NCBI GenBank assembly: GCA_903893625.1
Contig: CAITND010000194.1
Location: forward strand, 1 to 37,547
Length of the DNA: 37,547 nucleotides
Source of the DNA: an uncultured Oscillatoriales cyanobacterium
Lineage (GTDB): Bacteria; Cyanobacteriota; Cyanobacteriia; Cyanobacteriales; Microcoleaceae
Direction: 5' to 3'
Shown here in pieces: positions 28,663-32,251 of this stretch. Position numbers and translations under genes: made by a program. The first letter of the stretch is position 1. Each line of letters opens with the position of its first letter. The notes beneath the pieces were generated by a model. It was given only the letters and a program-made list of their open reading frames with translations. It was not told where the DNA came from and did no database searches.

Positions 28663-28677
28663 AGAAACCGGGTTTCT
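28663..28677 (+). terminator. Palindrome AGAAACCGGGTTTCT
   Basis: 7-base arms around a single G, 27 bases after the STAND gene and 13 before the end of the convergent YidD-like gene. Shares its core with the hairpin after rpiA; may serve both convergent genes. Confidence 0.55.
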
Positions 28678-28689
28678 GTGCTAATTAAA

Positions 28690-29085
28690 CTAACCACAAT
28701 CCCCAATATCACCGAAATCAATCCCATCACAACCTGGATCACAGATCCCTGCACAACAAGATTTTGGATTTGATAAACAACCACAATTGCGTTTATTGTG
28801 ATGATCATGCCCTTCATGCGTTTCGCTTTTAAGAATTATATAGGCATTTCTACAAGCTTTTAAGCGTTTACGCGCTAAGGGAATTGCATCAATTATACCA
28901 TATTTTGCAATCAGTTTTTTGATATATTGGGAGCAAGAATCACCATTTTGTAAGACTCGATAGGCACAAGAAAAACCTTTACGCGGTGAGATATATTTCT
29001 GATATCCCGTAATTGCTGCGATCGCAGTTTGATTCACAGCAATTGCCAAGGTATTTCCTAATAAATCGGTAACTGAACTTTTCAT
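28690..29085 (-). CDS. YidD-like protein with Cys/His-rich tail
   Basis: 131 residues. The central part (about 25-88) matches the YidD family (membrane protein insertion efficiency factor): YQKYISPRKGFSCAYRVLQN, GDSCSQYIKKLI, YGIIDAIPLARKRLKACR. Ordinary YidD is about 70-85 residues and works beside YidC at the membrane. Here an unusual tail follows with four His (HEGHDHHNK) and seven Cys (CGC, CC, and three single Cys in Gly/Asp-rich sequence), suggesting metal binding or disulfides. It is not next to rnpA or yidC as the core yidD gene often is, so it is an accessory paralogue. It borders a toxin-antitoxin island. Confidence 0.8.
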   Translation of the reverse strand: MKSSVTDLLGNTLAIAVNQTAIAAITGYQKYISPRKGFSCAYRVLQNGDSCSQYIKKLIAKYGIIDAIPLARKRLKACRNAYIILKSETHEGHDHHNKRNCGCLSNPKSCCAGICDPGCDGIDFGDIGDCG

Positions 29086-29103
29086 AATAAATTTGATTCC
29101 CTT

Positions 29104-29150
29104 CTATGGCTTGAAGATAAAATGATCACAGTGTTTAGGTCTAAATAGTC
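29104..29150 (-). repeat. Unit-end repeat R1, copy 1 (vapC 3' fragment)
   Basis: 47 bases with two mismatches to 29975-30021, the 3' end of vapC. On the minus strand it still reads LFRPKHCDHFIFKP-stop, preceded by an in-frame TGA, so it is the tail of a lost vapC paralogue or a duplicated end. It lies just downstream of hepT. Confidence 0.9.
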
Positions 29151-29167
29151 AAATCTCAATCAATAGT

Positions 29168-29509
29168 TTATACCTGCCAAAATCTTTCTGATATTTTTTC
29201 AATTGCGGTTTCTAACCCTGGTAAGTAATTTTCAACAATATCCCATATAACCTCTAAATCAATCCCTAAATACTCATGGGCTAGTCTATTCCTAAATCCA
29301 ACAATTCTGTGCCAAGGTGTATTAGGTTCTGATGCTTTCCATTCATCAGGTAACAGTCTGATAGATTCACACATCACCTCAAGATTTCTCATCACTGCAT
29401 CTTGAATCATCGTCTGTTCATAAAAGCTATCTTTTCCCGTAGCCGTATAGGATTTAATTCGTTGTAAACAATCTCGAATATGGATTAAGTAAATTCTATT
29501 TTCTTTCAT
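29168..29509 (-). CDS. hepT: HepT-like RNase toxin (HEPN)
   Basis: 113 residues, all-helical HEPN fold (DUF86). The catalytic motif R-x4-H-x-Y is intact: R73, H78, Y80 in GFRNRLAHEYLGID. HepT cleaves RNA and is silenced by its MntA partner, which adenylylates the tyrosine of this motif in the systems studied. Its ATG overlaps the mntA stop by four bases, so the antitoxin is made first from the same message. Both partners look whole, so the module should be active. Confidence 0.92.
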   Translation of the reverse strand: MKENRIYLIHIRDCLQRIKSYTATGKDSFYEQTMIQDAVMRNLEVMCESIRLLPDEWKASEPNTPWHRIVGFRNRLAHEYLGIDLEVIWDIVENYLPGLETAIEKISERFWQV

Positions 29510-29799
29510 AATTTAATTGCCTCATTCAATATTTTTTCTCGGATAAAGGAATGTAAAGACTTTGCTGTAACTATATCAACTTTACGATTTAAAATCTGCT
29601 CTAAATCTTCAATTAACCCGACTGGAAACCAAGGGGATATTTTAGATAAATCGTAATCAATTAAAAAATCAATATCACTATTCTCGGTTTCTTCCCCTCT
29701 GGCAACCGATCCAAATATTCGGACATTGAATGCTCCATGTTGATCGGCTATTTGCAAAATATCTTCTCGTTTTTGTTGTAGGAATTCTTTAATTTTCAT
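29506..29799 (-). CDS. mntA: MntA-like nucleotidyltransferase antitoxin
   Basis: 97 residues of the minimal nucleotidyltransferase (MNT) family. The active site is visible as GSVARGEE...SDID: G30-S31 and the metal-binding D42 and D44. In characterised pairs this protein AMPylates HepT to neutralise it. Gene order (antitoxin, then toxin, overlapping by ATGA) is the family standard. Upstream there are about 100 bases of AT-rich DNA and then the R2 repeat; the promoter is probably in that region but was not resolved. Confidence 0.92.
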   Translation of the reverse strand: MKIKEFLQQKREDILQIADQHGAFNVRIFGSVARGEETENSDIDFLIDYDLSKISPWFPVGLIEDLEQILNRKVDIVTAKSLHSFIREKILNEAIKL

Positions 29800-29898
29800 T
29801 ATCTAAATCCTAATTATTTTTACTGTAATCATTAATAAACCTGAGATCGCTCGTCTCTTAACATAAATTAAGCTCATCGGCCTGATTAGCTTGGCATT

Positions 29899-29971
29899 TT
29901 ACCCAATCTCGCCCAAAATCGTTAGAACAAGATTTAAACAATTGTACATCAATAACGATGATAGCCTGTCT
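29899..29971. repeat. Unit-end repeat R2, copy 1
   Basis: 73 bases, 5 mismatches to 30713-30785. Contains ATCGTTA (from about 29919) and its inverse TAACGAT, and a central ACAATTGT palindrome. It ends 3 bases before vapC's stop, so R2 and R1 abut. Confidence 0.92.
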
Positions 29972-29974
29972 AAT

Positions 29975-30021
29975 CTATGGCTTTAAGATAAAATGATCAC
30001 AGTGTTTAGGTCTAAACAGTC
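29975..30021 (-). repeat. Unit-end repeat R1, copy 2 (inside vapC 3' end)
   Basis: The intact version of the 47-base repeat at 29104-29150; it codes for the last 15 codons of vapC. Confidence 0.9.
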
Positions 30022-30388
30022 GAAAATCACGCTGATCGATTGTCAAAATAGTTTGAATGTTGAGTCGTTCTGCGATCGCCATGATGCAGGCATCAACAAA
30101 ATCAATTCTGCTATCAATATATTGTTCTAAAATGTTGGCAGTACGCTCAATATCATCATCCACCGCGACAATTAGTTCAAATCGGCTGGCAGATAAACCG
30201 TGCAGAAATTGGACAACGGTAGTAATTCCTGCATCACGACCGATCAAATATGCAACTTCAACCAATGCGACCTGGGGAAGAAAAATCTGTTGGTAATGCA
30301 AGTAAATGGGAGTCACGTCAGCATGGCGTTGATCCAAACGATTAGCGAGAGCGACTACAAAACCAGTATCGGCGATTACTCTTTCCAT
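29975..30388 (-). CDS. vapC: VapC-like PIN-domain toxin
   Basis: 137 residues of the PIN RNase fold. Acidic residues are in place: D7 (IADTGFVVAL), E44 (ALVEVAYLIG), D96/D99 (RIDFVDACIMAIAERL) and D118 (ILTIDQRDF), so it should be a magnesium-dependent ribonuclease. The last 47 bases form repeat R1. It overlaps the upstream antitoxin gene by 13 bases. The pair belongs to the second unit of the toxin-antitoxin island. Confidence 0.9.
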   Translation of the reverse strand: MERVIADTGFVVALANRLDQRHADVTPIYLHYQQIFLPQVALVEVAYLIGRDAGITTVVQFLHGLSASRFELIVAVDDDIERTANILEQYIDSRIDFVDACIMAIAERLNIQTILTIDQRDFRLFRPKHCDHFILKP

Positions 30389-30624
30389 GTAAAACCAGAG
30401 GTTGAGTTCAGTTCTCGATTCAAGATTTCCTCAGACTGGGTTGCCAAATCGGGTGAACCTGCGAAAAGACCAATTAGGGGATCTTCTGACTGGGGAATTA
30501 GGGCAATTTCTCCTGTCGAGGGTGGCATTTTTTGTTCGACTAACTGCATAATTTGACTGGCTAGATGAATTTGATCGGATAAGCTCAATTGTTGAGCAGC
30601 CTTGAGAAGTTCTTGAATGTTCAT
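30376..30624 (-). CDS. Antitoxin partner of VapC-like toxin
   Basis: 82 residues, acidic and mostly helical: MNIQELLKAAQQLSLSDQIH and LASQIMQLVEQK, then a linker and a C-terminal DPLIGLFAGSPDLATQSEEI region. That second part is the sort of segment that threads into PIN toxins. It is not a classic RHH or AbrB DNA-binding domain, but similar proteins accompany cyanobacterial PIN toxins. It starts upstream of and overlaps vapC by 13 bases, the usual order. Confidence 0.78.
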   Translation of the reverse strand: MNIQELLKAAQQLSLSDQIHLASQIMQLVEQKMPPSTGEIALIPQSEDPLIGLFAGSPDLATQSEEILNRELNSTSGFTWKE

Positions 30625-30712
30625 AAGAGATTTCTCAACAAATTTTATTGAGGAGTTAGATCATCATTTCTATTGTATATTCTTAGAGTGTTTGGGCTAA
30701 TTTCTAAAAAAA

Positions 30713-30785
30713 TTATCCAATCTAACCCAAAATCGTTAGAACAAGAGTTAAACAATTGTACATCATTAACGATGATAGCCTGTCT
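30713..30785. repeat. Unit-end repeat R2, copy 2
   Basis: Second copy of the 73-base repeat, upstream of vapB and marking the right edge of the island; about 93 percent identical to 29899-29971. Confidence 0.92.
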
Positions 30786-30873
30786 GAACTGGACACAACA
30801 CCCGCAGAAGAACTCCAGAGGTTCCCGAATTGTGCAATAATGATCCGGCAGTCTCCCAACAAGCGTGCGTCCG

Positions 30874-31908
30874 ATGGCCGACAGTCCCCAAACTCCCGAT
30901 GAACTGATCCAGGTTTTAGCTGAATTTCAGGATCTCCATTTTGAACTCCCTGATCCAGAAGCAGAAATTCCTGAATTGGATTTTGAACACCAAATTGATG
31001 TCGCTTGGAAAGTTTGCGATCGCTTCGACTTGCAAACGGAAATCTGGCGCGGCAGAATTTTAAGAGTTGTCCGAGATCGAGAAAAAAAAGGCGGGGAAGG
31101 AAGGGGTACAGGCTTTTTAAATTGGTTAAAAGAACGGGAAATTAGCAAGAGTCAAGCTTATGCTTTAATTGAATTAGCAAATAGCGCTGATGCCCTATTA
31201 CTTCAAGGTCATCTTAACCCCGATGCGATTAATAATTTTAGTAAACGAGCATTTATAGAAACGGCAAAAGCACCCGCAGAAGTGCAACAAATGGTCAGTG
31301 ATGCTGCTTGTAAAGGCGATCGCATTACTCGCCGCGAAGTTCGACAACTTAACGATGAATGGACGGCGATGAGTTCCGATTTAATTCCTGATGAAATTCG
31401 GGAAAAAGCAACGGAAGGTTCAATGCCGCCTCGCTATTTGGCGCCATTAGTTCGAGAAATGGAAAAATTACCGGAAGCACATATAACAGAATTGCAACGG
31501 GAAATGATCGAAAATCCTGATGTTGATACGATTAAACAGTTAACATCAGAAGCTAAAAATTTATCGAAATATTTGGATGCTGCGGCTCAAGTTCAAGCCT
31601 TAAATCAGTCTTCTGTGGATATGGAAATGGCATTAGAAGAAGCGTTGCGGGTGGGATGTTTAAATACGGCTTCTGATTTAGTTAAACAAGCCACTGCTCT
31701 CGAACAAACGATGGTTAAACTGTATAGTAGTTGGAAACGAGTTGGTAGTTTAGCGGATAGATTATATGTGGATACGGGAGCAAGTACCCCCCATTTGCGA
31801 TCTCTTTTAGGCTGTTTAGAACAGTTAGCGGGTCAAATTATTGAAGTGCAATTAGGGGATGGTAGCGAGGGCAGAATTCGTTTACAAATTCTATCTGATA
31901 ATGAATGA
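30874..31908 (+). CDS. ParB/DUF3102-like conserved protein, unknown role
   Basis: 344 residues from ATG 30874; a GTG at 30865 in frame is possible. No signal or membrane segment. The middle (GTGFLNWLKEREISKSQAYA and LIELANSADALL) resembles the helix-turn-helix region of DUF3102 and ParB-like plasmid or chromosome proteins, followed by ITRREVRQLNDEW. The rest is helical and charged, with probable coiled coil about 200-290 (EMEKLPEAHITELQREM). It could bind DNA, but this is weak. It directly follows the TA island, and two HIP1 sites inside it suggest it is a resident gene. Confidence 0.65.
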   Translation: MADSPQTPDELIQVLAEFQDLHFELPDPEAEIPELDFEHQIDVAWKVCDRFDLQTEIWRGRILRVVRDREKKGGEGRGTGFLNWLKEREISKSQAYALIELANSADALLLQGHLNPDAINNFSKRAFIETAKAPAEVQQMVSDAACKGDRITRREVRQLNDEWTAMSSDLIPDEIREKATEGSMPPRYLAPLVREMEKLPEAHITELQREMIENPDVDTIKQLTSEAKNLSKYLDAAAQVQALNQSSVDMEMALEEALRVGCLNTASDLVKQATALEQTMVKLYSSWKRVGSLADRLYVDTGASTPHLRSLLGCLEQLAGQIIEVQLGDGSEGRIRLQILSDNE

Positions 31909-31934: not shown

Positions 31935-32090
31935 ACAATTTATAATATTTACAGATAATCTTTCTAAACCCGCCCTACTACTATCCCGGCCACAATTTAT
32001 AATATCTACAGATAACCTTTCTAAACCCGCCCTACTATCCCGGCCACAATTTATAATATCTACAGATAATCTTTCTAAACCCGCCCTACC
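31935..32090. repeat. 54-57 bp tandem repeat, three copies
   Basis: Units begin at 31935, 31992 and 32046 with ACAATTTATAATAT, continue ACAGATAAYCTTTCTAAAC and end in CCGCCCTAC; copies 1 and 2 are joined by TATCCCGGCC. The GC-rich end matches the dispersed GAACCCGCCC family; unit 1 is preceded by its inverse GGGGCGGGTTC at 31920. Confidence 0.92.
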
Positions 32091-32135
32091 CCACAATTAA
32101 GATTAAATTAATCCTGAATTCTGGGATGGGTTCGG

Positions 32136-32251
32136 GGCGGGTTTTGGGAGATTATTTATGGGTATTAAAGGTTAACTCGAACCCGCCCCTACAGGCGTGG
32201 TTTTTGGAGATTGTTTGTGGGGATTAAAGGTTAACTCGAACCCGCCCCTAC
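32136..32251. repeat. Two copies of a 56-58 bp inverted-end repeat
   Basis: Copy 1 about 32136-32192 and copy 2 about 32194-32251 share GGAGATTRTTTRTGGG-like text and ATTAAAGGTTAACTCGAACC ending CGCCCCTAC. Each has GGGCGGG- or GGCGTGG-like and CCCGCCC ends, so each can fold as a hairpin. Confidence 0.85.

Follow-up and report, generated by a model that had tools for sequence, protein, structure and literature searches.

Toxin-antitoxin modules probably gained, stacked and lost at one intergenic site in Planktothrix

The window, a stretch of 37,547 nucleotides from an uncultured Oscillatoriales cyanobacterium, carries two adjacent toxin-antitoxin (TA) units, hepT/mntA and vapBC, each of which has a copy of one repeat (R1) at its left end and a copy of another (R2) at its right end. 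We put a probability of about 0.77 on the reading that Planktothrix has, directly upstream of a conserved gene, a fixed intergenic site at which TA modules have been gained, stacked and lost, and that the repeats are leftovers of this history, with no function as mobility ends. The comparison set comprised ten genomes of the genus, namely that of the window itself (G000, 5.83 Mb in 277 contigs) and nine others. Two of the others are presumably P. paucivesiculata PCC 9631 (G007) and P. rubescens PCC 7821 (G001), and the genus name is taken from these two.

The two-unit layout proposed in the sequence-only reading (29104-29971 with hepT/mntA and 29975-30785 with vapC/vapB) was confirmed in its positions and gene calls, and the divergence of the two repeat pairs, which is similar, is as it had been counted, with 2/47 mismatches in R1 and 5/73 in R2 (Table 1). 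Three bases, AAT, separate R2 of the first unit from R1 of the second, again as claimed. A repeat finder lengthens R1 to 56 nt (29103-29158 and 29974-30029, 91%) and R2 to 78 nt (29899-29976 and 30713-30790, 91%). Both repeat pairs are far beyond chance expectation, the second R2 copy being found with E = 7e-25 and the second R1 copy with E = 2e-14 in genome searches. The minus strand carries all four TA genes. Two short tandem arrays, with 54-base and 59-base units, follow the conserved gene at 31935-32251, and several window copies of these units match one place each in G001 and G009.

Table 1. Features of the tandem TA site in the window
Feature	Position	Strand	Evidence
R1_L: vapC 3'-end remnant, 3' of hepT	29104-29150	-	45/47 identical to 29975-30021
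hepT, HEPN RNase toxin, 113 aa	29168-29509	-	PF01934, 6e-26; NF047751, 70.4 bits
mntA, nucleotidyltransferase antitoxin, 97 aa	29506-29799	-	PF01909, 2e-14; G-S-X10-D-X-D
R2_1: conserved gene's upstream region, copied, 99 bases ahead of mntA	29899-29971	.	68/73 identical to R2_2; common to G007
R1_R: 3' end of intact vapC	29975-30021	-	R2_1-R1_R junction also in G007
vapC, PIN-domain toxin, 137 aa	29975-30388	-	PF01850, 37 bits; PDB 5x3t (VapC26), E = 1e-11
vapB-position ORF, 82 aa, overlaps vapC	30376-30624	-	kept beside vapC in G007, G004 and G006:C57
R2_2: upstream-region copy in its usual place before the conserved gene	30713-30785	.	same placement in relatives
Conserved cyanobacterial gene, 347 aa, site marker	30865-31908	+	10/10 genus genomes; 37/40 family genomes

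HepT exceeds the NCBIfam cut-off of 60 bits, carries the R-X4-H-X-Y motif as RNRLAHEY, and matches a HepT-type toxin in the structural database (PDB 5yep, E = 7e-6); it is thus a HepT-family HEPN toxin bearing the motif that marks the type VII HepT/MntA system. MntA scores 54.2 bits against PF01909 (cut-off 21) and has the GSX10DXD motif, with a score against NF047752 of 46.1 bits that lies below the cut-off of 60; it also strongly matches the PADLOC candidate-defence family PDC-S09 (7e-40). VapC exceeds the PF01850 cut-off of 23.6 bits and so has the PIN domain expected of a type II VapBC toxin, and it matched no NCBIfam model. The ORF in the vapB position matched no Pfam or NCBIfam family, and it is kept beside vapC in G007, G004 and G006:C57. 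Judged by these features, hepT/mntA would probably act as an ordinary type VII module, in which the RNase is blocked by AMP transfer, and vapBC probably as an ordinary type II module, in which a PIN RNase is held by a protein antitoxin. We found no sign that the two modules function jointly. The conserved gene matches no Pfam family.

Placement in relatives identifies R2 as the conserved gene's upstream region. It precedes this gene in P. rubescens (G001), a genome with neither module at the site, and taken whole or in part it lies before the gene in five of the relatives (present in G008 and G001, with parts in G004, G005 and G009), being absent there from G002, G003 and G006. Among the 59 relatives searched, R2 is confined to this site apart from matches of 22-29 bases with E from 0.004 to about 0.01; those in G057, and those at another position in G001, were dismissed as likely chance, as were scattered matches of 16-24 bases in the comparisons within the genus. 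A scan for the exact R2 pattern over one genome per species, covering 84,980 species, gave at least two loci, both of them this site (G007 and G001), a number which is a lower bound because the scan missed G008 and the genome of the window, whose R2 fit the pattern; viral contigs gave 0 matches. At another locus, G006:C57, a vapBC that is 93-95% identical to that of the window has homology from 29091 to 30710 and no R2, so R2 is not part of the vapBC module. R2 does not belong to a wider hepT/mntA unit either, since the best match to hepT/mntA outside the genus (G057:C195, 76%) spans 29180-29820 and covers the genes alone, without R1 or R2.

R1 consists of coding sequence from the 3' end of vapC, in line with what had been read from the sequence, and includes the stop codon: the right copy is the end of the intact vapC, and the left copy repeats this tail. 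To judge from this tail, which includes the stop codon while the rest of the gene is gone, R1_L is a remnant of a vapC. The homology on its side to the downstream flank of vapC in G006:C57 extends left to 29091, and such remnants beside hepT/mntA are also found in G007 and, in shorter form, in G008.

The state of the site varies widely within the genus. TA genes occupy it in five of the ten genomes (G000, G007, G008, G004 and G001), and the order in the window's genome is yidD, R1, hepT/mntA, R2, R1, vapBC, R2. The junction between R2_1 and R1_R is shared by G000 and G007 only, and because it is common to both, the tandem either predates their split or was exchanged between them. G007 has mntA and vapBC open, with hepT cut to its first 40 bases and the core of R2_2 deleted and followed by a DDE-transposase gene. 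G008 has hepT/mntA and R2 only at the site, and no vapBC was found anywhere in that genome at E <= 0.001. In G004 the vapB ORF is open, the R2 core is deleted, and a truncated vapC is fused in frame to yidD at GCGATCGC (HIP1), an octamer that occurs in both yidD (29018) and vapC (30072) of the window; the resulting 182-aa frame (G004:C19, L078 6160-6708) comprises an internally deleted N-terminal part of VapC and YidD, of which Pfam detects YidD only. The antitoxin ORF thus remains open where the partner toxin gene is damaged, as hepT is in G007 and vapC in G004, and the vapC of G007 and the hepT of G008 are intact.

The remaining genomes add a third TA class, scraps and empty sites. G001 carries a PemK/MazF-type toxin, without R1, and a 71-aa partner ORF for which no Pfam family scored above cut-off; they lie about 150 bases from R2, both oriented as the conserved gene, and a 72% relative of the hepT/mntA stretch is located elsewhere in the same genome. 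G005 (73% complete) has a hepT scrap of 34 bases joined to the end of R2, and G009 has an aminotransferase gene and retains the final bases of R2. In G006:C68 a left NB-ARC/TPR gene is followed by a yidD match of 32 bases at 84% at the breakpoint and then by the flank, and G002 and G003 have an unrelated 555-aa gene. Searches with the TA proteins of this study, together with the ORF lists, gave no TA module at the site in G002, G003, G006:C68 or G009. Outside the genus, homologs of these TA proteins were found upstream of the conserved gene at 0 of 20 family loci. These loci come from 20 of the 27 non-genus genomes with the gene (the 37 family genomes that carry it include the ten of the genus), with flanks of about 1500 bases, or 250 in L119, and the count applies to these TA families and not to unrelated ones.

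The left neighbourhood shows variation of its own. The yidD gene (28690-29085) has a single DNA match in G000, inside the TA site, and is also at this site in G004; strong matches place it elsewhere in G001, G002, G005 and G006 (40 of 180 candidates were scored, so that diverged copies may be missed). After the NB-ARC/TPR gene to the left of the TA site (L076, L080, L077) there is a 37-base spacer between inverted AGAAACCGGGTTTCTG repeats, which has the same orientation in G008 and G005 and is exactly inverted in G007; the window lacks the spacer and has one copy of AGAAACCGGGTTTCTG left, at 28663.

The tandem most likely arose by stacking, either through duplication with replacement in one copy or through the re-arrival of vapBC, followed by deletions. 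A vapBC would once have stood at the site and have been mostly replaced by hepT/mntA, leaving R1_L behind. The second vapBC with its own R2 may have come from a tandem duplication of the vapBC-R2 segment before this replacement; alternatively, an allele with hepT/mntA and a scrap of vapC may have taken in a vapBC-R2 allele, with R2 and the flank supplying the homology. From the comparison it can be read that lineages later lost parts of the array to deletions, one of which has the HIP1 octamer at its junction, and that one lineage acquired the transposase gene. The tandem duplication with replacement of cargo that the sequence-only reading had proposed fits, as does the close variant with a second arrival of vapBC; the evidence for either consists of the vapC remnant in R1_L, the presence of one R2 as an additional copy of the conserved gene's upstream region, and the similar divergence of both pairs. 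The left edge of both R2 copies approximately coincides with the end of the vapBC homology to G006:C57 (30713 and 30710, respectively), and because of this a replacement exactly at the module boundary needs either a coincidence or a crossover in R2. Three TA classes at one site are not readily explained by random insertion, and no mechanism for the insertion of TA modules at the site was found. In themselves two adjacent TA modules are unremarkable here, because the G000 genome has 41 PIN and five HepT matches and other close groups of PIN genes. One such dense cluster, at G000:C195 4579-10136, packs four matches to the PIN domain into about 5.6 kb, and one of these is interrupted by a stop.

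How far back the tandem reaches is less clear. It is possible, at odds that we would place somewhat below even, that within the stacking reading, with which this is compatible, the full tandem was ancestral for the lineage with the left NB-ARC/TPR gene and for G004, and that G008, G004 and G005 derive from it by deletion, in G008 through recombination between the R2 copies. The HIP1 junction of G004 is the outcome expected if a G000-like array lost the stretch between yidD and vapC, and this loss is the clearer one; the fusion of a hepT scrap with the R2 end in G005 and the yidD scrap at the site in G006:C68 also favour this history. Against it, no vapBC was found in the genome of G008 at E <= 0.001, and at one R2 position G008 has C, as in G001, where both G000 copies and R2_1 of G007 have T. 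This single site weakly suggests that G008 may have split off before the tandem formed, so that G008 could be either the state before the tandem or a product of recombination between the R2 copies. At its left end R2_1, and not R2_2, agrees with G001 (over 61 bases G001 is 93.4% identical to R2_1 and 91.8% to R2_2), so that either R2 copy may be the original. According to the part of PMC4390886 that deals with HIP1, indications of a role in site-specific recombination have been cited for the octamer, and evidence for a link to homologous recombination is there said to be lacking.

Integron gene cassettes form compact arrays of small genes between repeats and can carry TA modules, as in superintegrons. 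A cassette system, with R1 and R2 as the ends at which TA modules are exchanged by homologous or site-specific recombination, was the other explanation offered for the layout, and it would account for the repeats at the ends of both modules (left R1, right R2) and for the single-module state of G008, which is the expected outcome of recombination between R2 copies. The comparison lends it no support, and we regard it as highly improbable. As cassette ends the repeats are rejected, R2 being host flank found at this site alone and R1 lying in coding sequence within vapC and not outside the module; the vapBC of G006:C57 does without R2, and the PemK/MazF-type toxin of G001 lies near R2 in the opposite orientation and without R1. 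Other TA pairs between R1 and R2, which were sought in related genomes as had been proposed, yielded no third cargo in the ten genomes of the genus. Thus R2 does not recur at the boundaries of different cargo as the repeat of a cassette array does, and no recombinase or integrase was found among the eight neighbouring window proteins scanned. It had been held that repeats restricted to this locus, with one fixed order and no other cargo in all relatives, would speak against exchange; R2 is indeed confined to the locus, while order and cargo vary among relatives. Carriage by plasmids was also considered and rejected, as one record of 72,556 plasmids matched, over 150 bases within mntA.

Two further roles for the repeats may be weighed. 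R2 might be kept as a shared promoter for the adjoining TA operon, whichever this is, and one copy does end 99 bases upstream of mntA and the other 88 bases ahead of the vapB-position ORF. We consider this unlikely, as R2 also precedes the conserved gene where these modules are missing, and a promoter scan of 29050-30900 gave 5 sites, where shuffled sequence had 6.4 on average (other promoter types were outside the scan), with no minus-strand site in R2 and one plus-strand site overlapping the left end of R2_1. Nor can R2 be the promoter of the PemK/MazF-type toxin in G001, because that toxin runs toward R2, and a common TA promoter is therefore supported neither by the scan nor by the orientation in G001. 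It is very unlikely that the paired repeats serve as a recombination switch, in which recombination between the R2 copies deletes vapBC and that between the R1 copies deletes hepT/mntA; if it were so, a population with the tandem would constantly shed lineages addicted to one module, and the array would be kept as the source of both.

The stacking reading places the locus among systems already described. Where TA pairs, for the most part of different classes, are closely spaced, the relevant section of Makarova et al. 2009 (PMC2701414) holds that tandem duplication cannot account for them and names preferential incorporation within a region and/or the transfer of multi-pair cassettes. The present site resembles these TAS islands in that TA pairs of different classes lie close together, and differs from the islands as described in that section in that its history is partly visible, in the copied host flank, the vapC scrap and the serial loss. 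Plastic TA insertion sites are described, in the passages of PMC7167474 on this subject, between folA and apaH (the ccd of E. coli O157:H7) and between relA and mazG; common to these and our locus are one intergenic site, different elements in each relative, and TA decay, and the difference from the sites in those passages is that two module types here stand in tandem with copied flank between them. Across the ten genomes, HepT/MntA, VapBC, a PemK/MazF-type module or none of these is found at the one site, as is expected of a TA island or plastic site. The type VII motifs RX4HXY and GSX10DXD are defined in Yao et al. 2020 (PMC7641770), and the hepT/mntA module shares them and the adjacency of the two genes; relative to the system in the corresponding part of that paper, the MntA predicted here is under the NCBIfam cut-off. 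Decaying TA loci have been described as well, in part of PMC7280312. No description of this particular locus was recognised by title or start of abstract among the open-licence literature matches listed.

Mixed TA clusters and plastic TA sites are thus already known, and the locus is a useful allelic series and not a new kind of element. In a section of the 2020 review (PMC7167474) the movement of TA modules between hosts and their integration are called unelucidated. The site offers a readable series of alleles within one genus, with different modules, copied flank, scraps, a transposase insertion and a deletion at HIP1 beside one conserved gene. Stacking at one site, with no cassette machinery, can on this evidence give rise to tandem TA arrays whose ends match, or so the series suggests.
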